Shown here in pieces: positions 33,818 through 59,611 of a stretch of 64,000 nucleotides of DNA (positions are counted from its first letter, which is position 1; each line of letters opens with the position of its first letter). The position numbers and the translations under genes were made by a program. The notes under the pieces are model-generated. The model ran no database searches. It was not told the origin of the DNA and was given only the letters and a program-made list of their open reading frames with translations. This DNA is from Rhodospirillaceae bacterium (GTDB taxonomy: Bacteria > Pseudomonadota > Alphaproteobacteria > Rhodospirillales > JABHCV01): assembly GCA_018662005.1 (NCBI GenBank), contig JABJHA010000038.1, forward strand, positions 1 through 64,000, read 5' to 3'.

Positions 33818-33990
33818 TGGTTATTCTCAGAAAAACTAAAGTTGATACGGACGAAACAGTACGCTGATTCTTATAGTGCGTGTGAATAAATGTAGACCCT
33901 GATGGTTAACAAGTCATTGAGAGCAGGAGCCATATTTCTCCCCCTTCTATTGCTGTTTTACGAACAGTAATCAGCTTGATAGCCAAAATG

Positions 33991-34005
33991 GGGCAAAAGC
34001 TGCCC
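33991..34005. promoter_or_regulatory. Enhancer-like palindrome upstream of flgF (FlbD/ftr-type candidate)
   Basis: GGGCA-AAAGC-TGCCC is a perfect interrupted palindrome. Its centre is 93 bp upstream of the -24 GG of the flgF sigma-54 promoter. The same GGCA-N5-TGC(C/G) pattern occurs at 38935 (flgE) and 41467 (flgI) at nearly the same distance, which suits an upstream activator site for a sigma-54 enhancer-binding protein such as FlbD. Confidence 0.6.
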
Positions 34006-34088
34006 AGCGACGGGTAAGGAACGTCTGTTGGGCCCTGTCCTGAACCGCCTACATCACCACAAGTTATTGAAATCAAATAAAACTCCTT

Positions 34089-34106
34089 GTTGGCATGACC
34101 TGTGCA
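34089..34106 (+). promoter_or_regulatory. Sigma-54 promoter of flgF-flgG-flgA-flgH
   Basis: TTGGCATGACCTGTGCAA matches the -24/-12 consensus TGGCACG-N4-TTGCA: GG at 34091-34092, ten bases, then GC at 34103-34104. It lies about 50 bp before the flgF start. Confidence 0.75.
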
Positions 34107-34154
34107 AGGTTGCTGTCGGGAACGTGAAGCTTTTGGGAATTAGGATTGTAAGAA

Positions 34155-34889
34155 ATGGAAAATACATCACTGATAGCCGTATCCAGACAGGCGGTACTCC
34201 GCCGTTCAATGGATGTCATCGCCAATAATCTGGCAAATATGAACACCACCGGGTTTAAAGGCGAGAAGATGATGTTCGTCGAACATCTGGTTCGCAGCCG
34301 TGGCGGTGAACGGATTGGTGGCGATAAACTGGCCTTCGTTCGCGATATTGCAACGGCCAAGGATTTATCCGAAGGGGCCTTCAAAAAAACCGGTAACCCC
34401 CTGGACTTGGCGATCAGCGGCGAGGGCTTCTTCGTCCTTGGTACGCCAGGCGGTGAACGCTATACCCGAAATGGTAACTTCCAGATGGACTCCACCGGCC
34501 AACTGGTCACCCGCAACGGTGACCCTGTGTTGTCCGACAGTGGTGAACCATTTTTCATGAGCCCCGAAGACACCAGTATCGATGTCGCCCCCGATGGCAC
34601 CCTTTCAACGGAAAACGGGGTGCTTGGCAAGATGGCCGTGGTCAGCTTTGCCAACAGACAGGATATGCGGGTTGTCGCAGGCGGCATGTACAGCACGACC
34701 CAGGGGGCAACCCCGGTCGAACAACCAACAATTGTTCAGGGCATGCTCGAAGGATCAAACGTCCAGCCCATTGCCGAAATGACGCGAATGATCCAGGTCG
34801 CACGTTCTTACGAGAGCACCAAAAGCTTTGTTGGTCGTGAGGATGAACGGATGAAGGAAATGATCAAGGAATTCGCTACCCCGGCATAA
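34155..34889 (+). CDS. flgF: Proximal rod protein FlgF
   Basis: FlgF is a 244-residue rod protein. The N-terminal axial motif is RRSMDVIANNLANMNTTGFKGEKMMF. The middle has GEGFFVLGTPGGERYTRNGNFQMDSTGQLVTRNGDPVL, and the C terminus MLEGSNVQPIAEMTRMIQVARSYESTKSFVGREDERM. The ATG at 34155 begins MENTSLIAVSRQAVL. It is the first gene after the sigma-54 promoter and is followed by flgG. Confidence 0.95.
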   Translation: MENTSLIAVSRQAVLRRSMDVIANNLANMNTTGFKGEKMMFVEHLVRSRGGERIGGDKLAFVRDIATAKDLSEGAFKKTGNPLDLAISGEGFFVLGTPGGERYTRNGNFQMDSTGQLVTRNGDPVLSDSGEPFFMSPEDTSIDVAPDGTLSTENGVLGKMAVVSFANRQDMRVVAGGMYSTTQGATPVEQPTIVQGMLEGSNVQPIAEMTRMIQVARSYESTKSFVGREDERMKEMIKEFATPA

Positions 34890-34944
34890 AAACCGGCACA
34901 GCGTTGATTTAACAACGAACGTAAACGCTAAACACAAAGACAAA

Positions 34945-34961
34945 ACCGGCGTAAAGCCGGT
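34945..34961. repeat. Small hairpin between flgF and flgG
   Basis: ACCGGC-GTAAA-GCCGGT can form a 6-bp stem with a 5-nt loop in the 97-bp gap between flgF and flgG. There is no T-tract, so it may be an mRNA stabiliser or processing site rather than a terminator. Confidence 0.35.
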
Positions 34962-34986
34962 CAGAACCTAAGGAAAGGACGGGAAA

Positions 34987-35772
34987 ATGAGATCACTAAA
35001 TATTGCAGCGACGGGCATGTTAGCCCAGCAACGCAACGTCGAGGTCGTATCGAACAACCTCGCCAACATGAATACCACCGGGTTTATGCGAAGACGCACT
35101 GAATTCCACGACCTGCTTTACCAGAACCTGAGACGAGCCGGTTCGACATCTTCGGATGCCGGGACCATCGTTCCATCAGGTGTACAGCTGGGACTGGGCG
35201 TCAAACTGGCGGCGGTTTACCGAATTCACGAACAGGGCAACCTGAGCGCCACTGACAACACCTTCGACATGGCACTTCAGGGCAAGGGTTTCTTCCAGGT
35301 ACAGCTTCCTGGTGGTGAAACCTCCTACACCCGTGACGGCACATTCCAGTTAAATGCCAATGGGGAAATTGTCACCCACGACGGCTACAAGTTGATTCCC
35401 GGTATTACAGTGCCATCCAACGCCATTGACGTCACCGTCAATGCCAGTGGTGAAGTTTTGGCCAAAATCGAAGGCAAGGTGAAGTTATCCAACGTTGGTC
35501 AAATTCAAACGGCTGTTTTTGCCAATGATGCCGGCCTCCAGGCTATGGGTAACAACCTGTATACGGAAACACCGGCATCGGGCAGTCCCTCCACCGGAGC
35601 CCCCGCTTCGACCGGTTTCGGTTCCATTTTGCAGGGGTTTCTTGAAACTTCCAACGTCAACGCCGTCGAGGAAATTTCCAATCTCATTTCCGCCCAGCGG
35701 GCTTATGAAATGAATTCGAAAGTAATCCAGACTTCCGACGAAATGATGGGCACCGTCGCCAACATGAGGTGA
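34987..35772 (+). CDS. flgG: Distal rod protein FlgG
   Basis: FlgG is 261 residues, standard for the distal rod protein. It starts RSLNIAATGMLAQQRNVEVVSNNLANMNTTGFMRRRTEFHDLLYQ. The middle is GKGFFQVQLPGGETSYTRDGTFQLNANGEIVTHDGYKLIP, and the end LETSNVNAVEEISNLISAQRAYEMNSKVIQTSDEMMGTVANMR. An SD (AAGGAAAGGA) precedes the ATG. It forms the drive-shaft segment through the P and L rings. Confidence 0.97.
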   Translation: MRSLNIAATGMLAQQRNVEVVSNNLANMNTTGFMRRRTEFHDLLYQNLRRAGSTSSDAGTIVPSGVQLGLGVKLAAVYRIHEQGNLSATDNTFDMALQGKGFFQVQLPGGETSYTRDGTFQLNANGEIVTHDGYKLIPGITVPSNAIDVTVNASGEVLAKIEGKVKLSNVGQIQTAVFANDAGLQAMGNNLYTETPASGSPSTGAPASTGFGSILQGFLETSNVNAVEEISNLISAQRAYEMNSKVIQTSDEMMGTVANMR

Positions 35773-35785
35773 GGAGTTTAGGAAG

Positions 35786-36787
35786 ATGATGAAAAGATTA
35801 CATGATCACCCGCCAATGTTCCTGGGCCTCGTTTTAAGCCTGTTGTTGCTGCTCGCCTTTGTCGTCCCTGCGGCAGGCAGCGAAAACGCCCGGGTGGCTT
35901 CTGAGCCTGCTTTGGATCAGGTTGTTTTGCGCCAGAACATCACTGTCGACAACACGCTTGTTATGCTTGGCGACTTTTTCGACGGGGCCGGGGAAAAGGC
36001 GACCATTGCCGTGGCCTATGCCCCGGAACCCGGGAAGCGGGCCGTATTCGACGCCAACTGGTTGTACCGGGCCGCCAACGCTTACGGTCTTAAATGGAAG
36101 CCTTTGAGCCTGAAACAACAGGCCGTGGTGAAACGCGAAACGGTAACCATTGGTCGCGAGGAAATCGAAGATCACATTCTCGCCGCCCTGATCGACAAGG
36201 GCGCCGACCCTGAAATGACTGTGGAATTGAGCAACCGGTCCATGCGCCTTTACGTGCCGTCCAGTTCCTTGGCCAGGGTCATTGTCGAGAACGTTGATTA
36301 TGATCAACGCACAAAACGTTTTTCGGCTTTTGTCTCAACCCCGGATTCAAAATCCACCAGGGTCACCGGGCGTCTGCAAAAGATGCTGAGTGTGCCGGTT
36401 ACCAACCGCCGGATGTTGAAAGGCGAACTGATCGGCTCACAAGACATCGTATGGATCAAAACACCATCAGAGCGGATTCAGCCTGATATCGTCATGCACC
36501 CTGATGATCTTATTGGCAAGACACCAAAACGCGGACTTCGTTCCGGTTCACCGATCCGCAGTTCAGACGTGCAGCGTCCGGTCATTGTCAAAAAGGGTTC
36601 TCTGGTCACGATGATTTTGAAAACCCCGATGATGACCCTGACATCGCAAGGTCAGGCCATCGACAACGGGTCTGACGGGGACGTTATCCGTCTCACCAAC
36701 ACGCAAAGCAATACCGTTATTCAGGCCGTCGTTTCCGGGCCCGGCGTGGTCACCATCACGCCAGCCAGTCACCTGGCCATGAACTAG
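35786..36787 (+). CDS. flgA: P-ring assembly chaperone FlgA
   Basis: This 333-residue periplasmic protein has a signal peptide (FLGLVLSLLLLLAFVVPAAGSEN). The C-terminal half is the FlgA/SAF-type domain: VPVTNRRMLKGELIGSQDIVWIKTPSERIQPDIVMHPDDLIGKTPKRGLRSGSPIRSSDVQRPVIVKKGSLVTM...GDVIRLTNTQSNTVIQAVVSGPGVV. FlgA helps FlgI form the P ring. It is longer than the enteric protein (about 219) because of an extra N-terminal domain, as in other Alphaproteobacteria. It lies 13 bp after flgG and 17 bp before flgH. Confidence 0.92.
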   Translation: MMKRLHDHPPMFLGLVLSLLLLLAFVVPAAGSENARVASEPALDQVVLRQNITVDNTLVMLGDFFDGAGEKATIAVAYAPEPGKRAVFDANWLYRAANAYGLKWKPLSLKQQAVVKRETVTIGREEIEDHILAALIDKGADPEMTVELSNRSMRLYVPSSSLARVIVENVDYDQRTKRFSAFVSTPDSKSTRVTGRLQKMLSVPVTNRRMLKGELIGSQDIVWIKTPSERIQPDIVMHPDDLIGKTPKRGLRSGSPIRSSDVQRPVIVKKGSLVTMILKTPMMTLTSQGQAIDNGSDGDVIRLTNTQSNTVIQAVVSGPGVVTITPASHLAMN

Positions 36788-36804
36788 CAGAGACTTGGAG
36801 AAAA

Positions 36805-37572
36805 ATGATGAAAATATCACATCCGGACAAAACACTCAGGCTGATCCCAGCCCTCGTCCTGATGGCTGGCCTTTCTGCCTGCACCAGCACAATGAGCCGG
36901 TTGGCGGAAGTCGGCAACGGCCCCGAACTAACCGAGATTACCAACCCGACAGCGCAACCTGAATACCGGCCGGTCAGTATGCCCATGCCGACTCCGGAAT
37001 TGGCTGAAGAAAATCCAAATTCACTTTGGCGGGCCGGCGCGCGGGCATTCTTCAAGGATCACCGGGCCAAAGAGATTGGTGACATCCTGACCGTATCCAT
37101 GGACTTCACCGATAGCGCCACCCTGGACAACACGACAACCAGGACCCGTGCTGACACAGAAGACACCGACGTTACCAATCTGTTGGGACTTGAAGCGGAA
37201 TTCACCAAGGTGCTTCCGCAAGCCCTGGCCAATGCATCGGTGATGAGCTTTGGTAACGCTATGGATACCGAAGGCACCGGCAACATTACCCGCTCGGAAG
37301 CCTTGTCGCTTTCCATGGCCGCCGTTGTTACCCAGATCCTGCCCAATGGCAATCTGGTGATCATGGGTCGTCAGGAAATGCTGGTGAACAAGGAAATTCG
37401 TGAACTGATGGTCAGCGGCGTTGTCAGACCCGGCGATATCGAATCCGACAACACCATCGCCCATACCTCTATTGCCGAAATGCGCGTCGCCTACGGTGGA
37501 CGCGGAACCTTAAGCGAACTCCAGAAACCGCGCTGGGGAACGCAAATCTGGGATATTATCTTCCCGTTCTAG
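36805..37572 (+). CDS. flgH: L-ring lipoprotein FlgH
   Basis: This is a 255-residue outer-membrane lipoprotein. The lipobox is LSAC near residue 26 (LMAGLSACTSTMSRLA). Family signature stretches include RAFFKDHRAKEIGDILTVSMDFTDSATLDNTTTRTR, VVTQILPNGNLVIMGRQEMLVNKEIRELMVSGVVRPGDI and the C-terminal AYGGRGTLSELQKPRWGTQIWDIIFPF. It is the last gene of the flgF operon and is followed by a terminator. Confidence 0.97.
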   Translation: MMKISHPDKTLRLIPALVLMAGLSACTSTMSRLAEVGNGPELTEITNPTAQPEYRPVSMPMPTPELAEENPNSLWRAGARAFFKDHRAKEIGDILTVSMDFTDSATLDNTTTRTRADTEDTDVTNLLGLEAEFTKVLPQALANASVMSFGNAMDTEGTGNITRSEALSLSMAAVVTQILPNGNLVIMGRQEMLVNKEIRELMVSGVVRPGDIESDNTIAHTSIAEMRVAYGGRGTLSELQKPRWGTQIWDIIFPF

Positions 37573-37601
37573 ATTTCAGGAAACTGTATCTGGACAAACT
37601 T

Positions 37602-37631
37602 AAGGCCGGCGCTGAGCGCCGGCCTTTTTTT
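37602..37631 (+). terminator. Rho-independent terminator after flgH
   Basis: AAGGCCGGCGC pairs with GCGCCGGCCTT around a 3-nt loop (TGA), followed by a run of T residues. It lies 30 nt after the flgH stop. Confidence 0.92.
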
Positions 37632-37717
37632 GTTGTTCCGTGATAAACCGGGATCAGGGCAACTTAATAAAATCAATCAAAATCGATCAAAGTATCTGCA
37701 TTAAAATGCAGTTTGAT

Positions 37718-38164
37718 CTAGTCGTCGCGATGGGTTTTTTCCATCCGTTCATGACGTTCCTGCGCTTCGATGCTCAACGTCGCAATCGGACGGGCTTCGA
37801 GTCGGGACAGGCTGATCGGTTCGCTGGTTTCCTCGCAGTACCCGTATTCACCTTGCTCGATTCGATCCATCGCTTCATCAATTTTTGAGATTAACTTGCG
37901 GGCCCGGTCACGGGTGCGAAGTTCAAGGGCGCGATCGGCTTCAATAGAAGCCCGATCAGAAATGTCGGGTTCCTGGACGCCACCTTCCTGAAGATGCTGC
38001 AGGGTTTCGTTAGACTCGCTAAGGAGTTCGCCCCGCCAGGACAAAAGTTTCTGGCGAAAATATTCTTTCATATGCGGATTCATGAACTCTTCTTTTTTGG
38101 AAGGTTTGTAATCCGGTGCAAGCGTCACATTCATTGCTTTGACTTTCCCCATCGCATTTCCCAA
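37718..38164 (-). CDS. dksA: DksA-type RNA polymerase-binding regulator with a reduced zinc finger
   Basis: This 148-residue protein has the DksA architecture. A coiled coil (about 40-110, FRQKLLSWRGELLSESNETLQHLQEGGVQEPDISDRASIEADRALELRTRDRARKLISKIDEAMDRIEQGEYGYC) carries the acidic tip DISDRASIEAD. The zinc-finger region reads YCEETSEPISLSRLEARPIATLSIEAQERHER: only the first Cys remains, the others being Thr, Ser and Ala. Rhodobacter DksA also has a single Cys and stays active without zinc, so loss of the finger does not imply a pseudogene. It sits between flgH and fliX. Confidence 0.93.
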   Translation of the reverse strand: MGNAMGKVKAMNVTLAPDYKPSKKEEFMNPHMKEYFRQKLLSWRGELLSESNETLQHLQEGGVQEPDISDRASIEADRALELRTRDRARKLISKIDEAMDRIEQGEYGYCEETSEPISLSRLEARPIATLSIEAQERHERMEKTHRDD

Positions 38165-38320
38165 AGGTAGATATCGACCACGTTAAAATTTGGCGCGGAA
38201 TATAGGGCTGCAAGCGATGGGCCGCAAGAGGGCTTTTTCATTGACACAGATTTAACTGGATTCAATGTGCCAAAAAAAACCGGAAATTTCCGGCAAAACC
38301 ACCAAAAACTGGCTTAAATT

Positions 38321-38752
38321 CTAGGTTTTACGCGTTAATTTGGCGATTTCGACTTCCGCACGCAACTCGATCTCATCAATGATTTCATTGAGCTTGGGAT
38401 CAACTGTTTGACGTCGATGGGCGCGCATTTTTTGCGCAAGAGAGCTCAATTTCTCTTTTTCGATGGACCCGACAAGCAAATCCCGGCGTAAATCTTCCAG
38501 GTGTTCGAGCACGTCGCCGCCATATTGAACGCCCAAACGTCGAGCTCGTTGCTGGGTTTGATCATCAGCCTCCTGGACCGCCAGGATGGCATCCACAGAA
38601 TTTACGGCGCCTGCCTCTGTTGACGCAGACAGGCCCGCGCCCGCAGCAGCGCCTTTTAGATGTTCGGCGAATGCAGCCCCATGCCCCTGTTCGACTTTCT
38701 TACGCGAAACAGAAGATGCCGATTTGCCGGATTTAACCTTCGATACCTTCAT
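38321..38752 (-). CDS. fliX: Flagellar assembly regulator FliX
   Basis: This 143-residue protein matches the FliX family. It has a basic, low-complexity N terminus, then VNSVDAILAVQEADDQTQQRARRLGVQYGGDVLEHLEDLRRDLLVGSIEKEKLSSLAQKMRAHRRQTVDPKLNEIIDEIELRAEVEIAKL. In Caulobacter, FliX binds and regulates FlbD, the sigma-54 activator of late flagellar genes, and monitors basal-body assembly. It lies amid the sigma-54-type operons of this window and is divergent from flgE. Confidence 0.9.
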   Translation of the reverse strand: MKVSKVKSGKSASSVSRKKVEQGHGAAFAEHLKGAAAGAGLSASTEAGAVNSVDAILAVQEADDQTQQRARRLGVQYGGDVLEHLEDLRRDLLVGSIEKEKLSSLAQKMRAHRRQTVDPKLNEIIDEIELRAEVEIAKLTRKT

Positions 38753-38812
38753 CCTTGGAATTCAATCACTTTATAGCGTTTAAGGAAATGGTGTTCGGGT
38801 CGAAAAAGAGTT

Positions 38813-38826
38813 GCCATGAACAAGCC
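38813..38826 (-). promoter_or_regulatory. Possible sigma-54 promoter of fliX
   Basis: On the minus strand GG-CTTGTTCATG-GC has the right 10-bp spacing and is followed by AA, but the bases around GG differ from the consensus (cGGCTT). It would start transcription about 50 nt before fliX. The palindrome at 38935-38947 lies about 115 bp away, so one activator site could serve both directions. Confidence 0.35.
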
Positions 38827-38934
38827 GCCATCATCCCCCATCGGCCCTAACAACTCATTAAAAAATAAGCCTTGTTTGCGTTTACGACAAGCCCTGCACG
38901 CTTAAGAAATGCAAGTCAGAGATGCCGCCAACCC

Positions 38935-38947
38935 GGCAATATCTGCG
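38935..38947. promoter_or_regulatory. Enhancer-like palindrome upstream of flgE (FlbD/ftr-type candidate)
   Basis: GGCA-ATATC-TGCG lies within CCAACCCGGCAATATCTGCG. The flanking bases CCAACCCGGCAATAT recur exactly upstream of flgI (41460-41474). The centre is 101 bp upstream of the -24 GG of the flgE promoter. It is a near-palindrome of the class seen at 33991 and 41467. Confidence 0.6.
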
Positions 38948-39040
38948 CCGACCAGGTAGATACGACCATAATGGCCTCCAGCACGATCTTGGGCAGATAT
39001 AATATCTTTTAAATTCAAATGGTTATCAAGACAAGTAAGT

Positions 39041-39057
39041 TGGCATCTATTTTGCTT
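39041..39057 (+). promoter_or_regulatory. Sigma-54 promoter of flgE
   Basis: TTGGCATCTATTTTGCTTA matches TGGCACG-N4-TTGCA, with GG at 39042-39043, ten bases, then GC at 39054-39055. It lies about 70 bp upstream of the flgE ATG. Confidence 0.8.
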
Positions 39058-39125
39058 ATAAATTAGTGGAATATTCCGTCCGCCATCAGGATATGGCGAT
39101 GGTTCAATATAGTGGAGTCATTAAA

Positions 39126-41447
39126 ATGCCTGTTTATTCGGCCTTTACAATCCCGTCCCTTGGAATGAGGGCGCAAGCCCATTCTCTGGCCACAATTGGT
39201 AATAATATTGCCAATGTGACAACGGGCGGCTTTAAGCGGACTGACACCAATTTCTCGACTCTCCTTAGCAACACCATTGATAAACAATCGGATATTGGCG
39301 GCGTTAGGCCCAAGGATTTGAACCAGATCACCCAACAGGGCAACATCGTCATCAGCAACCGTGATCTGGATCTGGCTATCAATGGTCAGGGTTTCTTTGT
39401 TCTCAATTCCAGTGCCACCGGTGGCGGTCAGACCTATTACGGACGCGATGGATCGTTTGAAATGGCCACCGTCAACGATATTTCCGTAACCGGCACCCCT
39501 TCGGTTGATGCTAACAACAACACCATCGCCAACACCATAATCTCCAAGGACGGTTACCTGGTCGATAAAAACGGCTATTTCCTGCAAGGCTGGACGGCAG
39601 ACCCGGCCACCGGATTGTTTACCAATACCTCCTTATCGTCCCTTCGCATCGACCCTTATGCCTTTGCTGTATCCGGGCAGACAACCACAACGGCCGCCCT
39701 GAAATTGAATTTACCGTCAGCCGACAGCCCCGGAGTCAATCATGTCTCTGAAATCGCCATGGCAGGCTCAGTCGGCGCCCTCGAGGCAGGTGACACCTAC
39801 AGTGTGACCGTCGATGGCACAACGGTGACCTATACAACGACAGGGGCTGAGGCAAATTTGAATGCTGTACGCGATGCCTTCGTCGCCGCCATTAATGCCA
39901 ACACGACTGTTGCTGCAGGGGCAACCGCATCGGCAAGTACCGTTGATGGTAAACTTCTGATTACCGGCAAGACTCAGGGCACAACCCTGACGGTTTCCAG
40001 CGCAACGACAAACGTCGGTGCCGTCGCCGATAATACAATTTCCAGTTCAACCACCCAGACTGCAAAAGCTGGTGATGCCCAATACTACAATATCAAAATT
40101 TATGATTCCAACGGCAATGCCCGTTCCGTCCGGCTTGATTTCACCAAAACAGCGACCAACACCTGGAATTTATCGACCAGCGTCGGCAAGACCCCGGTCG
40201 CCCAGGTCGATACGCTGACCCTGGCCGGAACGATCGAGGCTGGCGATGTTTATTCGACAGTTCTCGCGGGCACGACCTTCAGTGTCACCGCCAGTGCCTC
40301 CGACACCCTGACCACAATTCGAGACGCCCTGGTCAGCAGCATCAACGCCGACGCCAGCGTTAAAGTTACGGCTGCAAGCAGTGGCTCCGCCGCTTTGACC
40401 CTGACCGCCGATACGGCGGGGACATCGTTTACCAACGTACCATCAACAACAAATACCGCTGCCGTCGCCCAGATTGACCGCGTAACAATGACCGGTAATT
40501 TCGCCATTGGTGATACCGTTTCGGTGAATGTAAACGGGATCGGGGCCGTCCCATATGCCGTCATCGGCACGGATTTAACTGATAATGGCGGCGACGGCAC
40601 CGGTACTGACGCCATAGCCCGAAATAATATCGCCATAAAATTGGCAGCAGCTATTGTTGGCAATGGTCCGACGGCAGCCGTTACAACCGCGACCGCCCCG
40701 GGTGGAGGAATCGTTTCCCTGACGGCAGTCGCAGCCGGTACGGCTTTCACCCATACGGCGGCCGCCGTCACCGCAACGACTGGTTCAGCGGGTTCATCAA
40801 CGCCAACCCCGAATATTGCCGCCTTAGGAGATAACACGGCGACGAAAGCCACCCCTACGGCCAACGTATCGCCGTCGGAAACAACGACAACATCCGTCAC
40901 CAGCCTGGTATTCGATTCCAAGGGAATAATGACATCGCCTGCCTCGGGTTCGGTGTCACTGGCTTTGACGTTCCCGCCCGAAGGATCATCCCCGGCGGCT
41001 ACCGCCACTGTCGCCATGGACATTGGTGAACTTTCCCAGTTTGCTGGAAACTTCCTGCCATTCAGCTATTCCAGTAATGGTTATGCAGCAGCCAATGCAC
41101 AGTCGATCCGCTTTGACAGCAAGGGCCAGGTTATCGCCACATTTGATGATTCGACATTTCGGACGGTCTATAAAGTCCCGCTGGCGCAATTTTCCAACGC
41201 CAACGCGCTGGAGGAATACAACGGAAATGTTTATCGGGAAACCGAGGAATCGGGTGTCGCCCGGGTCGTCGATGCCGACAAAACAGGCTACGCATCATTC
41301 CTGCCCAGCACCCATGAAGTCTCGAATGTCGATCTGGCTGGCGAGTTTACCCGCATGATGATGACCCAGACGGCTTACAATTCATCGGCGACAGTCTTTA
41401 AAACCGTCGATGAAATGATCTCTGCAGCCCGCGATCTCAAGCGATAA
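39126..41447 (+). CDS. flgE: Flagellar hook protein FlgE, enlarged by repeated domain
   Basis: The hook subunit is 773 residues, against about 400 in enterics. The start at 39126 (MPVYSAFTIPSLGMRAQAHSLATIGNNIANVTTGGFKRTD) has a GGAG upstream; an earlier in-frame start is unlikely. The ends are standard, with GQGFFVLNSSA near the start and FEQ-type ends STHEVSNVDLAGEFTRMMMTQTAYNSSATVFKTVDEMISAARDLKR. The extra length is three copies of a beta-rich unit (about residues 207-290, 359-437, 449-550) of the type EAGDTYSVTVDGTTVTYT...AVRDAFVAAIN. A copy also occurs in FlgL. It is exported by the flagellar system. Confidence 0.95.
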   Translation: MPVYSAFTIPSLGMRAQAHSLATIGNNIANVTTGGFKRTDTNFSTLLSNTIDKQSDIGGVRPKDLNQITQQGNIVISNRDLDLAINGQGFFVLNSSATGGGQTYYGRDGSFEMATVNDISVTGTPSVDANNNTIANTIISKDGYLVDKNGYFLQGWTADPATGLFTNTSLSSLRIDPYAFAVSGQTTTTAALKLNLPSADSPGVNHVSEIAMAGSVGALEAGDTYSVTVDGTTVTYTTTGAEANLNAVRDAFVAAINANTTVAAGATASASTVDGKLLITGKTQGTTLTVSSATTNVGAVADNTISSSTTQTAKAGDAQYYNIKIYDSNGNARSVRLDFTKTATNTWNLSTSVGKTPVAQVDTLTLAGTIEAGDVYSTVLAGTTFSVTASASDTLTTIRDALVSSINADASVKVTAASSGSAALTLTADTAGTSFTNVPSTTNTAAVAQIDRVTMTGNFAIGDTVSVNVNGIGAVPYAVIGTDLTDNGGDGTGTDAIARNNIAIKLAAAIVGNGPTAAVTTATAPGGGIVSLTAVAAGTAFTHTAAAVTATTGSAGSSTPTPNIAALGDNTATKATPTANVSPSETTTTSVTSLVFDSKGIMTSPASGSVSLALTFPPEGSSPAATATVAMDIGELSQFAGNFLPFSYSSNGYAAANAQSIRFDSKGQVIATFDDSTFRTVYKVPLAQFSNANALEEYNGNVYRETEESGVARVVDADKTGYASFLPSTHEVSNVDLAGEFTRMMMTQTAYNSSATVFKTVDEMISAARDLKR

Positions 41448-41466
41448 GGCCTAAATCAGCCAACCC

Positions 41467-41479
41467 GGCAATATATGCC
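41467..41479. promoter_or_regulatory. Enhancer-like palindrome upstream of flgI (FlbD/ftr-type candidate)
   Basis: GGCA-ATATA-TGCC is a perfect interrupted palindrome. Its centre is about 104 bp upstream of the -24 GG of the flgI promoter. It lies just past the flgE stop codon and shares CCAACCCGGCAATAT with the flgE site. Confidence 0.6.
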
Positions 41480-41574
41480 ACAGCTTAACATCAAAGAACG
41501 GCATTCTTTACCGGCAACGGCGATGAAATTAGAAAATTTCTGTTTAAAAACAACACACTGACAAAAGTTAATAT

Positions 41575-41592
41575 TTGGCACGATTTTCGCAT
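41575..41592 (+). promoter_or_regulatory. Sigma-54 promoter of flgI-flgJ-flgN-flgK-flgL
   Basis: TTTGGCACGATTTTCGCATA matches the consensus -24 TGGCACG exactly and has GC at -12, with 10 bp between GG (41577-41578) and GC (41589-41590). It is about 70 bp upstream of flgI. Confidence 0.85.
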
Positions 41593-41660: not shown

Positions 41661-42854
41661 ATGATCGGCAGAATTAAAATGAATGAATTGGCTCCAACTC
41701 CCCACGGCATGATCGAGGTGGGCTGTGTTCTTCGCCCCTTAAAGCGGATTATGCTGCCAATTGTCGCGGGTTTGTTCATCATCATGATCGCCGCCACCGC
41801 TGCTCAGTCAGCCTCGCGTATCAAGGACATCACAGAATTTGAAGGCGTTCGCGAGAATATGCTGGTCGGTTACGGCCTCGTCGTTGGCCTTAACGGCACG
41901 GGTGACAGCCTCGCCGATGGCCATTTCACCAAGCAGAGTCTGAAAGCCATGCTCAATCGTCTTGGCGTCAAACCAACCGATGCCGGACTTGATTCAAACA
42001 ACGTCGCCGCGGTCATGGTCACAGCCGAGCTGCCGCCTTTCGCGCGCAAGGGATCTCGCATTGACGTCACCGTGAGTTCCCTGGGCGACTCATCGAGCTT
42101 GTTGGGTGGCACCCTTTTGGTAACCCCGATCCTTGGTGCAGATGGCGAAGTTTACGCCGTTTCCCAAGGTCAATTGGCCGTCGGTGGTTTCGCCGCCGCT
42201 GGCGCCGCCGAAACCATCACAAAAGGTGTTCCGACCAGCGCCCGTATCGCCAACGGGGCGATCGTCGAGCGTGAAGTCAGGTTTGAACTGGCAAGTTTGA
42301 AAAAAATTAAAATGACCCTGCGCAACCCTGATTTCACAACATCCAGGCGTATCGCGCAGGCCGTCAATGCGTTCCTTGGAACCACTGCTGCGACCCCCAC
42401 TGACCCGACAACGGTACAAATCAGAATACCCAAAGATTACGCTGGTGATGTTTTCAATCTACTGGCCGATATTGAACAATTGCGCATCGAGCCTGACCAG
42501 ATGGCCAGAGTCGTTATCGACGAACAATCCGGCATTATCGTGATGGGTGAAAATGTTCGCATCAGCACCGTCGCCATTGCCCAGGGCAACCTGACGATCC
42601 GCATTACCGAAGCCCAGCAGGTTTCACAACCTGGTCCGTTTGCCGAAGTTGGCACCACGACGACGGTCAACCGCACTGATGTCGCCGTTGACCAGGGCGA
42701 AGATCAAAGATTGACCGTTGTTAATGAAGGGATCACCCTGCAAGAAATGGTCAACGGACTGAATGCGTTGGGTATTGGACCGCGCGACATGATCACGATC
42801 CTGCAAGCCGTCAAGGCGTCAGGCGCGATGCAAGCCTCCATCGAGGTGATGTAA
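41661..42854 (+). CDS. flgI: Flagellar P-ring protein FlgI
   Basis: FlgI is 397 residues from the ATG at 41661 (GGAAAG upstream); the open frame begins with a TTG 18 nt earlier. A signal peptide follows a longer N-terminal leader (MLPIVAGLFIIMIAATAAQSASRIKDI). The mature protein has the full family pattern: FEGVRENMLVGYGLVVGLNGTGDSL, FTKQSLKAMLNRLGVKP, NVAAVMVTAELPPFARKGSRIDVTVSSLGDSSSLLGGTLLVTPILGADGEVYAVSQGQLAVGGF and the C-terminal LGIGPRDMITILQAVKASGAMQASIEVM. The gene overlaps flgJ by one base. Confidence 0.96.
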   Translation: MIGRIKMNELAPTPHGMIEVGCVLRPLKRIMLPIVAGLFIIMIAATAAQSASRIKDITEFEGVRENMLVGYGLVVGLNGTGDSLADGHFTKQSLKAMLNRLGVKPTDAGLDSNNVAAVMVTAELPPFARKGSRIDVTVSSLGDSSSLLGGTLLVTPILGADGEVYAVSQGQLAVGGFAAAGAAETITKGVPTSARIANGAIVEREVRFELASLKKIKMTLRNPDFTTSRRIAQAVNAFLGTTAATPTDPTTVQIRIPKDYAGDVFNLLADIEQLRIEPDQMARVVIDEQSGIIVMGENVRISTVAIAQGNLTIRITEAQQVSQPGPFAEVGTTTTVNRTDVAVDQGEDQRLTVVNEGITLQEMVNGLNALGIGPRDMITILQAVKASGAMQASIEVM

Positions 42855-48336: not shown

Positions 48337-49206
48337 ATGGAAGACACTACCCTTTTGGAGCCCTGGTCGGTTAGCGAACACGTCTTCTTCATTGGCGAGA
48401 TAGGCATTAATCACAATGGTGATATCGATATTGCCAAGCAGTTGATCGATATGGCGAAGAATGCCGGTTGTGACGCTGTTAAATTTCAGAAACGTACCCT
48501 TGATATTGTCTATAGTCAGGAAATGCTTGATAGCCCCCGCGAAAGCCCCTGGGGAACCACCCAGCGCCAGCAAAAGGAAGGGCTGGAGTTCGGTGAGGCG
48601 GAATACGACGAAATAGACCGTTATTGCAAAGAAATTAAGATCGACTGGTTTGCATCTGCCTGGGACATTCCGTCGCTTGAATTTTTAAAAAAATACAAAT
48701 GCCCGTTCAATAAAGTGGCTTCGGCCATGACCACTCACAAGGAATTCCTGGAAGCTGTCGCCAGTGAAGGCAAACACACCTTCATTTCGGTGGGCATGTG
48801 TACCTATGACGATATTCAGTATGCCGTCGATGTCTTCACCAACAAAAAGTGCCCCTACACCTTGATGCACACAGTTGCAGAATACCCGGTTCCTGAAGAA
48901 CGTTTAAACCTGCGTGGCATCCAGTATTTGCGCCAGCGTTTTAATTGCCCAGTCGGATACAGTGGCCACGAAGCTTCCGTATCGCCATCCCTGATTGCTG
49001 CTGCGATGGGAGCGACTTCCATTGAACGTCATATCACCCTTGAGCGGACCATGTACGGGTCTGATCAGGCCGCCTCACTGGAAGGTCTTGGCCTGACACA
49101 GCTGATTTCCCAAATACGAAAAATTCCAATTGTCCTGGGCAACGGGGAGCGGACCATCACCGAAGGGGAAAAATCCGCCGCCGAAAAACTCCGTTATTGG
49201 AATTAA
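48337..49206 (+). CDS. NeuB-family N-acetylneuraminate/nonulosonate synthase (first)
   Basis: This 289-residue enzyme of the NeuB family condenses PEP with a 6-carbon amino sugar to give a nonulosonic acid. Seen: FFIGEIGINHNGDIDIAKQLIDMAKNAGCDAVKFQKR (catalytic N-terminal strand and Lys), ASAWDIPSLEFLKKYKCPFNKVASAM, and FNCPVGYSGHEASVSPSLIAAAMGATSIERHITLERTMYGSDQAASL. The C-terminal SAF/antifreeze-like domain of typical NeuB (about 345 residues) is missing. It begins a tightly packed seven-gene operon (48337-55311). The product cannot be assigned to sialic, legionaminic or pseudaminic acid from sequence alone. Confidence 0.85.
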   Translation: MEDTTLLEPWSVSEHVFFIGEIGINHNGDIDIAKQLIDMAKNAGCDAVKFQKRTLDIVYSQEMLDSPRESPWGTTQRQQKEGLEFGEAEYDEIDRYCKEIKIDWFASAWDIPSLEFLKKYKCPFNKVASAMTTHKEFLEAVASEGKHTFISVGMCTYDDIQYAVDVFTNKKCPYTLMHTVAEYPVPEERLNLRGIQYLRQRFNCPVGYSGHEASVSPSLIAAAMGATSIERHITLERTMYGSDQAASLEGLGLTQLISQIRKIPIVLGNGERTITEGEKSAAEKLRYWN

Positions 49207-49217
49207 GTGTTCCGCCC

Positions 49218-50285
49218 GTGCCAGAACATAAAACCTATTGTTTTGATATTGACGGCACCTTGTGTACCAACACTGAAGGTGAATACGAAGCTGCGGAACC
49301 GTTCGGCGATCGCATCGAGGTGGTTAACCGTTTGTTTGATGCAGGCCACCAGATCCTTCTATTAACCGCGCGCGGCGCCACCACCGGTATCGATTGGCGG
49401 GCCGTGACTGAAAAACAAATGACCGACTGGGGCGTTCGTTATCACGAACTGTACCTGACCAAACCGTCGGCACATGTTTATATAGACGACAAGGCTTTCA
49501 ATTCCGAAACATGGGACTGGCAGGTCCATGGCGGACCACCGCCCTTGCCCGCACAATCGGTTATGGAGCAGGCATCCTATCTTGACGTGACCTATAGCGA
49601 AGAACGCGCACCGTTCGGCCCCTATCCGGCCCAATTGGCCACCTGGATCACCGAAAACCGTCTCCCGACCAAGGGACGACTTCTCGACATGGGCTGCGGA
49701 CGGGGTGAATTTTTATCGGCTTTTTCCAAGTTGGGATTTGATGTCGCCGGAACCGATATCTCGCCATCCGCGCCCATACTTTCGCCTGATTTTGATGTCC
49801 GTGTCGCCAATCTTGATAGCGCCCCCATGCCCTTTGAGAACGACAGCTTCGACTTTGTTTTTTCAAAATCGGTGATCGAGCACACACGCACCCCAACCGT
49901 CATGCTGAAAAAGGCTTTTGATGTCCTGCGCCCCGGTGGTACGGCAGTGATTATGACACCCAGCTGGACGCATACCCATTGGGGGCCGTTTTATTGTGAC
50001 CACACCCACGTCACGCCGTTTACCGCCTTGTCCCTGCAAGACGCCTTGCACTTAAGCGGTTTTGAAGGGGCACGGGCCGAGCATTTTATCCAACTGCCGG
50101 CGGTTTGGGAAAACCCGGCATTGAAACCGCTCACCTACTTGATACGAAAGCTGCCAATCCCGTTCCGCCCGCACATGGATGCGCCATGGCCGGAAAATAT
50201 CAACAAATTTATTCGGTTTTCAAACGAAGTGATGCTGTTGGCCGTGGCCCGCAAACCCTTTTCGGCGGAGGCCCAGATCAAATGA
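49218..50285 (+). CDS. HAD-type phosphatase-methyltransferase fusion
   Basis: This protein of about 355 residues has two domains. Residues about 1-110 form a HAD hydrolase-like domain with CFDIDGTLCTN (motif I) and KPSAHVYIDDKAFNSETWDW (motif IV-like). Residues about 145-345 form a class I SAM methyltransferase with RLLDMGCGRGEFLSAFSKLGFDVAGTDIS and LDSAPMPFENDSFDFVFSKSVIEHT. The start is a choice between GTG at 49218 and a TTG at 49197 that would overlap the NeuB gene; I prefer 49218. The order suggests dephosphorylation and methylation of the sugar (inference). The gene overlaps the next by an ATGA. Confidence 0.8.
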   Translation: MPEHKTYCFDIDGTLCTNTEGEYEAAEPFGDRIEVVNRLFDAGHQILLLTARGATTGIDWRAVTEKQMTDWGVRYHELYLTKPSAHVYIDDKAFNSETWDWQVHGGPPPLPAQSVMEQASYLDVTYSEERAPFGPYPAQLATWITENRLPTKGRLLDMGCGRGEFLSAFSKLGFDVAGTDISPSAPILSPDFDVRVANLDSAPMPFENDSFDFVFSKSVIEHTRTPTVMLKKAFDVLRPGGTAVIMTPSWTHTHWGPFYCDHTHVTPFTALSLQDALHLSGFEGARAEHFIQLPAVWENPALKPLTYLIRKLPIPFRPHMDAPWPENINKFIRFSNEVMLLAVARKPFSAEAQIK

Positions 50286-51019
50286 CATCCCAATGCGCGA
50301 TCATTCCCGCCCGTGGTGGATCAAAAGGGGTTCCGGGAAAAAACATCCGCACCTTGCGTGGTCACCCGATGATTGCCTATTCGATTATAGCGGCCCGGGA
50401 ATGCGCAAACATTGATCGTATCATCGTCTCCACAGACAGTCCTGAAATCGCCAAAATCGCCACCTCATACGGTGCCGAAGTACCCTTTATGCGGCCACCC
50501 GAACTGGCCGGTGATCTGTCGCCAGCGATTGATTTCATGACCCACGCGCTTGATCAATTGGCGCTTGAAAACGACAAGCCTGACATGATGGTCATGCTGT
50601 TGCCGACAACACCTTTGCGCGATTCGGCAGTGATTGACGAGGCCATTACCCGACTGCAACAAACCCCTGAAGCAACAGGACTGCGTTCGGCCCATGAATT
50701 GCCCGAACCGCCACAAAAAATGATGGGGATCAAGGATGGCTACTTATGCGGCCTGTTCCCTGATGATCCCAGGCCAGAATACTTCAACTTGCCACGTCAA
50801 ACCTTTCCGATTGCCTATCACCCCAATGGATACGTTGAAATTGTCCGCCGTGAGACCCTGATCAACGAGGGGACCCTGTACGGCTCAAAAATTCAGAGTT
50901 TCATCACGCCCTTCACCATCGAGATCGACGCGCCGGAAGATTTTGACTATCTGCAATATACCATCGATCAACACGGCCACCCTCTGATCGATAAACTTGA
51001 CACCCTCGGGAAGGCTTGA
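50282..51019 (+). CDS. CMP-sugar (acylneuraminate) cytidylyltransferase-like
   Basis: This 245-residue nucleotidyltransferase activates nonulosonic acids with CTP. The start at 50282 is chosen because ATGA overlaps the preceding stop; the frame extends further up without support. Family motifs are AIIPARGGSKGVPGKNIRTLRGHPMIAYSIIAARECANIDRIIVSTDSPEIAKIATSYGAEVPFMRPPELAGD and MVMLLPTTPLRDS. It resembles NeuA/PtmB-type CMP-sugar synthetases. It follows the NeuB and HAD-methyltransferase genes. Confidence 0.88.
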   Translation: MTSQCAIIPARGGSKGVPGKNIRTLRGHPMIAYSIIAARECANIDRIIVSTDSPEIAKIATSYGAEVPFMRPPELAGDLSPAIDFMTHALDQLALENDKPDMMVMLLPTTPLRDSAVIDEAITRLQQTPEATGLRSAHELPEPPQKMMGIKDGYLCGLFPDDPRPEYFNLPRQTFPIAYHPNGYVEIVRRETLINEGTLYGSKIQSFITPFTIEIDAPEDFDYLQYTIDQHGHPLIDKLDTLGKA

Positions 51020-58450: not shown

Positions 58451-59611
58451 TTACCTGAACAATTGCAAGATACTCTGTTGCGATTGGTTGGCAAAGGACA
58501 GAGCAGAAGTACCCAGGGCCTGTCTGGTCTGAAGGGCCAGCAGGTTGGCGGATTCTTCTTCAAGGTTAGCGTTGATCAACAGGCCAGCACCAGCTTCAAG
58601 AGTCTGGATCAGCTCATTGGTGAAAGCTTCACGTGATTGCAGAAGACCAAGATCGGTACTAAAGCCAGAAGCCGTGGTCCGCAATGTTGAAAGACCGGAT
58701 TTGGCTTCGGCGATGGATGTATCGATATTAGCAGCGACACTCCAATCCGCGGTCGCGGCCGTAAAGTTAAGGCCGGTCACGTTCAAAGTCGTCGAAGTAA
58801 TGGTAATGCTCGTCGACTTTTCGTTGGTTGTTACGGTCAGGTCGTTACCGCCGATGAGGTTAATACCCTTATAACCGGCATCAAGATACAGTTTGTTGAT
58901 TTCGGCAAGGACCTTTTCAAAGTCAGCTTCAAGTGACGCAACGTCAGTGCCGGACCCCGTAGAACCGTACGTGGTGGTGCCCATCGTGAACATTTGCGTA
59001 GCAAACGCTGATGTACCCGAAAGAGTAACCTCAACACCCGCAGAAGAAGTGATTTCAATTTTGTCCGAAGTGGTATTGTAAGTAGCGGTAATACCCGTGT
59101 CGGCTGCGGAAATAGCCGTCACGATTGACGCAATTGTATTCGTGGTCGAATACGTTACGGTCGCTGAGCCACCACCGGTAACGGCGACGGTCAAGACTGC
59201 AGACGTTGAAACAACAACAGCAGCCCAAGCAGCCGAAACAAAAGTCGAGCCACTATTTGTCGTTGAAGCAACAGCCAAACTGGAGATTTTAGAAACCTGA
59301 GTTGAAGCTTCTTTAGCCTGCTCACCAAGTGTCTTGGCCTGTTCAACTAAATTCGTCAGTGCCTCAATACCTTTATCAGCCGCTTTCAACGTCTGAACGG
59401 CCTGGCCCATACCGTCTTTAAGAGAGGTAAGGTCAGAAGCACGGTTGTTCAAACTACGAGCCGTAAAGAACGGGCTGGCACCGTCAAGGGCGCTGTTAAC
59501 TTTCAGGCCGGTAGACAGACGCTCGGACGTACGCTCGAACAGAGCGTTGGTGCTTTGCAGGGAGAGGAGGTTTGTGCGAATACTCGCACTAAGATTTACA
59601 TCGTTTGCCAT
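58451..59611 (-). CDS. Flagellin
   Basis: This 386-residue filament protein has the conserved N-terminal helices (LSASIRTNLLSLQSTNALFERTSERLSTGLKVNSALDGASPFFTARSLNNRASDLTSLKDGMGQAVQTL) and C-terminal helices (SREAFTNELIQTLEAGAGLLINANLEEESANLLALQTRQALGTSALSFANQSQQSILQLFR). The variable middle (about 130-310) is rich in Ser and Thr, possible glycosylation sites. It is the only flagellin in the window. Upstream lie a sigma-70-type promoter and a two-hairpin leader, and GGAG lies 11-12 nt before the ATG. Because several flagellins are usual in this class, the symbol is left open. Confidence 0.95.
   Translation of the reverse strand: MANDVNLSASIRTNLLSLQSTNALFERTSERLSTGLKVNSALDGASPFFTARSLNNRASDLTSLKDGMGQAVQTLKAADKGIEALTNLVEQAKTLGEQAKEASTQVSKISSLAVASTTNSGSTFVSAAWAAVVVSTSAVLTVAVTGGGSATVTYSTTNTIASIVTAISAADTGITATYNTTSDKIEITSSAGVEVTLSGTSAFATQMFTMGTTTYGSTGSGTDVASLEADFEKVLAEINKLYLDAGYKGINLIGGNDLTVTTNEKSTSITITSTTLNVTGLNFTAATADWSVAANIDTSIAEAKSGLSTLRTTASGFSTDLGLLQSREAFTNELIQTLEAGAGLLINANLEEESANLLALQTRQALGTSALSFANQSQQSILQLFR

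Follow-up and report, generated by a model that had tools for sequence, protein, structure and literature searches.

The closest described counterpart of the system considered here is that of Caulobacter crescentus, in which FlbD, its ftr sites, FliX, integration host factor (IHF), and sigma-54 together govern the class III and class IV flagellar genes. The FlbD-FliX pair of Bradyrhizobium diazoefficiens, outside Caulobacter, reportedly also controls flagella, with a link to exopolysaccharide, to go by the title of a 2021 study by Dardis et al. that is cited in PMC9977809. Other polar flagellates use FleR, FlrC, or FlgR, sigma-54 activators that are likewise linked to construction of the flagellar base. 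These proteins pair with sensor kinases, whereas FlbD has no cognate kinase and takes FliX as its partner (PMC7064773). A 64,000-nucleotide stretch of DNA from a Rhodospirillaceae bacterium (GenBank assembly GCA_018662005.1, contig JABJHA010000038.1, positions 1 to 64,000), analysed in full and called the window below, carries a flagellar gene cluster with three palindromes upstream of the sigma-54 promoters of flgF, flgE, and flgI. These palindromes are very likely ftr-type upstream activator sites, bound by FlbD and driving the three genes. The system is very probably the known Caulobacter type in a new place, to which a motif model, a composite element before fliF, and a diguanylate cyclase gene are added. 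Like that of C. crescentus, it comprises an FlbD equivalog and fliX; its rod, ring, and hook genes have sigma-54 promoters (here recognized by sequence) that share an upstream site, some spacers contain candidate IHF sites, and a further site precedes a CtrA-type fliF promoter; it differs in belonging to another order, the nearest titled FlbD records being from Rhodospirillales.

A preliminary description of the window had reported palindromes of the form GGCA-N5-TGC(C/G) before the three promoters, and these can be read directly. The flgF site, GGGGCAAAAGCTGCCCA (33990..34006, forward strand, 16.7 bits by the matrix described below), has its palindromic core GGCAAAAGCTGCC at 33992-34004 and its centre at 33998, 94 bp from the -24 GG of the promoter TGGCATGACCTGTGCA (34091..34106, forward strand, GG at 34092). 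The flgE site, CCGGCAATATCTGCGCC (38933..38949, forward strand, 15.7 bits), with core GGCAATATCTGCG at 38935-38947 and centre at 38941, lies 101 bp from the GG of TGGCATCTATTTTGCT (39041..39056, forward strand). The flgI site, CCGGCAATATATGCCAC (41465..41481, forward strand, 15.6 bits), with core GGCAATATATGCC at 41467-41479 and centre at 41473, lies 104 bp from the GG of TGGCACGATTTTCGCA (41576..41591, forward strand). The earlier promoter positions of 34089, 39041, and 41575 are thus exact for flgE and off by 0-3 bases overall, and the earlier distances of 93, 101, and 104 bp hold for flgE and flgI, with 94 replacing 93 for flgF. A 15-mer said to be common to the flgE and flgI sites, CCAACCCGGCAATAT, does occur twice, although it carries little weight alone because 27 different 15-mers recur in the window on either strand. 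A weaker second site before flgI, ACGGCATTCTTTACCGG (41498..41514, forward strand, centre 41506, 71 bp to the GG), scores 11.6 bits, and its counterpart in the nearest relative, L009, scores 8.2 bits. The flgF and flgE spacers each contain an IHF-like site, CAAGTTATTGAAA (34060..34072, reverse strand) and ATTCAAATGGTTA (39013..39025, forward strand), one mismatch from what we take to be the consensus (YAANNNNTTGATW and WATCAANNNNTTR, respectively); the flgI spacer of the window has no IHF-like site within one mismatch.

The signal is the placement of the palindrome, not its number. A matrix of 17 positions was learned from sites of this genome and its relatives, with the consensus (C)CCGGCAA-N3-(T/C)TGCC(G/C)G, and at a threshold of 11 bits it gives seven hits in 64 kb. 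Three of these fall within open reading frames (ORFs) and are followed by no promoter, and all four intergenic hits (33998, 38941, 41473, and the weaker 41506) lie upstream of the flgF, flgE, or flgI promoters; the scores of the three named sites are partly so by construction, because those sites belong to the matrix. Across the whole genome, the strict promoter pattern TGGCA-N6-TNGCW shows no excess (51 matches versus 58 for the reversed control), and four of the 51 have an ftr-like site of at least 11 bits upstream: flgE, flgI, a diguanylate cyclase gene, and C22:13412, which is inside an ORF and was set aside as chance. A first composite of site and promoter gave seven matches versus one in the control, two of the seven being the flgE and flgI sites. 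Neither the flgF nor the fliK promoter fits the strict pattern. The promoter of fliK-flgD-flgE2, TGGCCCGGCATTTGCT at C38:107937, is preceded by two ftr-like sites at C38:107821 (11.8 bits) and C38:107845 (12.7 bits). A second long flgE-type hook gene (∼708 aa, G000:C38:110669-112795, G000 being this genome) lies behind this ftr/sigma-54 promoter via fliK-flgD.

The genome encodes FlbD at G000:C17:2205-3545, which passes model NF050807 narrowly, by 1.7 bits (751.7 versus a cut-off of 750); in a set of 14 named control genomes, matches to the same model at E ≤ 1e-150 were confined to Caulobacter vibrioides. The protein carries GAFTGA, its C-terminal GISIRTLRNKL is identical in all 23 FlbD homologues, of 26, that have a visible C-terminus (judged by eye), and its gene stands, by best models, in the run fliH-fliN-motA-flbD-flhA. 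As previously described, fliX is also present, divergent from flgE (38321..38752, reverse strand); its product matches five FliX models and no others (best PRK12787.1-2, 4.9e-33), with a score of 114.6 bits that is below the model cut-off of 153. FlbD, as an NtrC-family flagellar activator, would bind the palindromes about 95-104 bp upstream, reach sigma-54 polymerase at all three promoters by looping, and open them, with IHF presumably aiding the looping at some promoters. FliX, encoded beside flgE, would couple FlbD activity to the assembly of the early part of the flagellar base, as in Caulobacter.

Conservation in relatives, a check suggested by the preliminary description, bears out the placement of the site before the flgF, flgI, and fliX-divergent promoters. 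A search of 40 genomes of the same order (this one included; 31 families) matched FlgI in 34, FlgF in 37, and FliX in 35 (the last at E ≤ 0.001), and 30 loci were fetched per protein. Palindrome counts required a promoter hit and 150 bp of upstream DNA, leaving 29 of 30 flgI, 29 of 30 flgF, and 14 of 30 fliX loci; among these 14, L092 and L097 are flgI promoters counted again. In each promoter set, GGCA-N5-TGCC had the highest exact count among 3,328 palindromes (256 half-sites by 13 spacings). It was exact in 13 of 29 flgI promoters and present at seven or more of eight positions in 28 (shuffles, 0.1 and 2.0); the corresponding figures were 21 and 28 of 29 for flgF (shuffles, 0.1 and 2.3) and 6 and 13 of 14 for the fliX-divergent set (shuffles, 0.05 and 0.8).

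Shared ancestry of flagellar intergenic regions, combined with a chance palindrome and no regulator, would also yield similar promoters, and the distance from the flgF promoter to the gene start is likewise alike among relatives. This explanation is scarcely credible, since identity between families is 26-37% for spacer and upstream DNA versus 64-70% for the ftr 17-mer (a figure inflated by the choice of sites by matrix score) and 71-79% for the promoter, and since the same motif precedes unrelated genes (fliF, fliK, and the diguanylate cyclase gene) and recurs elsewhere in the class.

The spacing of these putative FlbD sites was described earlier as a fixed distance, which stands to within a few base pairs for a given gene and differs from gene to gene. 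The distance is 94-98 bp in 23 of the 28 genomes with a flgF site, 101-106 bp in 16 of 28 for flgI, and 101-104 bp in 7 of 12 for the promoter divergent from fliX, where the divergent gene is flgE in the window and was not checked in every relative; the remaining distances are scattered between 63 and 125. This analysis had no 150-bp requirement and used 12 of 30 loci in the fliX-divergent set, without L081, L085, L092, and L097. Helical phasing with a 10.5-bp period was considered and dropped (Rayleigh R 0.34, then 0.29; nominal p 0.001-0.003 against a jitter null), because distances are non-independent across relatives and R fell with better site choice. IHF-like sites, by the consensus assumed above, are exact in 7 and within one mismatch in 18 of 29 flgF spacers (shuffles, 0.12 and 2.5), in 3 and 8 of 29 flgI spacers (0.08 and 2.6), and in 2 and 6 of 12 fliX-divergent spacers (0.07 and 1.25). 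A tandem form, TGCC-N1-GGCA, with sites 14 bp apart, occurs in 16 of 29 flgF promoters and is absent from that of the window; such pairs are seen in L043, L044, L046, L052, L057, L061, L062, L063, and L065, one site usually being much weaker.

A strict composite pattern was also scanned for in 385 alphaproteobacterial genomes, with the reversed pattern as control. It gave 251 matches in 139 genomes, versus 23 matches for the control, and was found in 102 of 181 FlbD-positive genomes versus 37 of 204 others; the reversed pattern was no commoner with FlbD (9 versus 14 matches). Thirty of the 251 loci and 60 further matches picked from the listing were examined for the first downstream ORF, with L225 lacking one. 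The product was flagellar by Pfam in 18 of the 29 remaining loci, a GGDEF protein in 2, and other or none in 9, and among the 60 (59 from FlbD-positive genomes) it was flagellar in 43, a diguanylate cyclase in 3, one of two unassigned proteins in 5, and nothing recognizable in 9. The expectation that the palindrome would be enriched at other flagellar sigma-54 promoters, pursued in part, is thus supported by these 18 of 29 and 43 of 60 matches and by the two sites before fliK-flgD-flgE2. In L208 and L209 (family f90), the pattern lies 14-39 bp before the gene of a ∼485-aa protein, which in one of these genomes weakly matches a methyltransferase.

Another NtrC-family enhancer-binding protein might occupy the palindrome in place of FlbD. 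The genome has five strong members of this group, FlbD included, and two weak matches, the other four strong Sigma54_activat proteins being encoded on contigs C28 (two), C46, and C32; these activators also have homologues in relatives, and co-occurrence was tested for FlbD only. Such a substitution is nevertheless very unlikely, as the sites track flagellar genes and fliF and co-occur with FlbD.

Binding by FlbD is further suggested by the promoter of fliF. An ftr-like site at C38:114672 (18.5 bits) lies 121 bp before fliF, and the sequence TTAACCAGTTATTCA that comes after it differs by one letter from the full CtrA site, TTAA-N7-TTAA (PMC6180460); site and CtrA-like box abut one another at G000:C38:114664-114700 (L160 10664-10700). 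A CtrA homologue in the genome has 69% identity to the CtrA query. After exclusion of L206, which lacks upstream DNA, 29 of 30 loci of the order were usable: the site precedes fliF in 26, this genome included (shuffle mean 0.4), the box TTAA-N7-TT(A/C)A in 24 (shuffle mean 0.2), and both in 22, where the site centre is always 12 or 13 bp from TTAA. A second set, fetched through FlbD, comprised 80 loci, 66 with FliF, of which 5 were dropped for missing ends; in the 61 used, the site lies within 350 bp upstream in 53 (shuffle mean about 1) and the box in 35, though these records may overlap with the genomes of the first set. Records of Tistrella, Telmatospirillum, Magnetospirillum, Thalassospira, Parvibaculum, and Roseibium have the site. 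In this order it stands directly upstream of the box, whereas in Roseibium loci L291, L292, and L300 the order is reversed, a perfect TTAA-N7-TTAA coming first and the site following 31 bp downstream. In the genome studied here, fliF is at the end of contig C38 and the flbD run at the start of contig C17. The contigs are unjoined, yet the flbD cluster probably begins with fliF in this genome as well, because in relatives such as G004, G005, G012, G014, and G037 the two genes share a strand and fliF starts 4.6-5.3 kb upstream.

Work on Caulobacter describes higher activity of the fliF promoter in the absence of FliX and repression of fliF by FlbD (PMC3096577, PMC3930126). From this behaviour, a site beside the CtrA-like box suggests that FlbD represses the early operon here as well, probably shutting it off. 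At the flgF, flgE, and flgI promoters, too, the FlbD-bound site could serve mainly for repression or as an architectural element, given that Caulobacter FlbD both activates and represses (PMC3930126) and that the fliF site abuts a CtrA-like box. For these three promoters such a role is highly improbable, as each site precedes a sigma-54 promoter by about 95-104 bp, the usual place of an activator, with IHF-like sites between in many relatives.

The proposal that the palindrome is the FlbD site of this organism draws support from the presence of FlbD and fliX, the conserved placement, the class-wide co-occurrence, and the fliF site, all of which make activation by FlbD the favoured interpretation. 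Several observations weigh against it, beyond the inflated identity figure, the possible overlap of fliF records, and the sub-threshold FliX score given above. GGCA-N5-TGC shows no enrichment across the window, with 9 matches versus 14.4 expected, and the flagellin gene of the window (58451-59611) has no ftr/sigma-54 promoter by matrix scan. By the same scan, the flgI promoter of G020 and the flgF promoter of G032 have no site, and the fliF site is absent from 8 of 61 loci, among them all three from Cohaesibacter. The odds ratio for co-occurrence of the composite pattern with FlbD (5.8, p 3e-15) takes no account of genome size or relatedness. The 37 genomes that carry the pattern without an FlbD hit include 10 that carry it at least twice, and 79 of 181 FlbD-positive genomes are without the strict pattern; part of the 37 may stem from split genes in draft genomes or from the scoring of at most four candidates per genome. 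Besides cyclases, non-flagellar or unrecognized first genes account for 9 of 29 and 14 of 60 matches. If the assignment is correct, a site studied mainly in Caulobacter becomes a motif searchable across Alphaproteobacteria, from which FlbD regulons could be proposed directly from genomes, and the motif already points to checkpoint control of a diguanylate cyclase by the flagellum, as well as to a compact element of FlbD and CtrA upstream of fliF.

This cyclase is a single-domain GGDEF protein of 233 aa (locus L125, G000:C15:79645-80481). Its promoter, TTGGCACGAGCCTTGCT at G000:C15:79703, has a strong ftr-like site (21.3 bits) at a distance of 53, and the upstream region contains, by eye, an exact match to what we take to be the IHF consensus, TAATCCATTGATT. 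Related cyclases come first at five further class-wide loci of the 90 examined (L213, L214, L327, L371, and L376, from three families). A search of plasmid records with the L327 protein returned seven records, all from Azospirillum, with 54-58% identity over 70% of the query, and in all seven the cyclase homologue is preceded by two ftr sites and a sigma-54 promoter; L383 was judged by eye, as the start assigned to it was too far upstream. The seven count as about one lineage, as they are mutually close and perhaps also close to the L213/L214/L327 family. The cyclases have a GGDEF domain and a helical lead-in in common.

On this evidence, the balance tips slightly toward a small single-domain cyclase within the FlbD regulon, here and in other Alphaproteobacteria including Azospirillum, such that completion of the flagellar base would raise cyclic di-GMP synthesis, together with an FlbD-CtrA composite that would act as an autorepression switch at fliF and is kept across many families of the order. 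This would couple the flagellar assembly checkpoint to the decision to swim or stick, and FlbD would control more than the flagellum. None of the papers listed by a literature search pairs FlbD with a diguanylate cyclase in its title, and the novelty of the link is tentative.

The genes behind the three promoters of the window are on the forward strand. The flgF gene (34155..34889) heads the run flgF-flgG-flgA-flgH. For the flgE-type hook gene (39126..41447, ∼773 aa), ATG 39126 was chosen by reading because GTG 39066 of the ORF list is too near the promoter, and for flgI (41661..42854), ATG 41661 was likewise chosen by reading, with ATG 41679 also possible. By NCBIfam best models the full run is flgF, flgG, flgA, flgH, dksA, fliX, flgE, flgI, flgJ, flgK, and a flagellin/flgL-like gene, with fliL, fliM, and cheZ-, cheY-, and motB-like genes on the opposite strand. 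Curated cut-offs are cleared by flgF, flgG, flgA, flgH, and flgI, and flgE clears only the FlgE/F/G subfamily model; several names, among them those of flgE (that model aside), fliX, flgJ, cheY, and cheZ, rest on best match and context because they are below these cut-offs. Unlike the flagellin gene of the window, flagellin-type genes elsewhere in the class are preceded by the composite pattern at loci such as L223, L355, and L357. In G004, of the same family, FlbD and FliF were matched, FlgI and FlgF were not, and FliX was found as a 40-residue piece only, which suggests a flagellar system that is decaying or incompletely assembled. Adjoining the flagellar cluster of the window, NeuB/PseI-like and PseF-like genes at 48337-51019, which are below curated cut-offs, suggest nonulosonic acid modification of flagellin.

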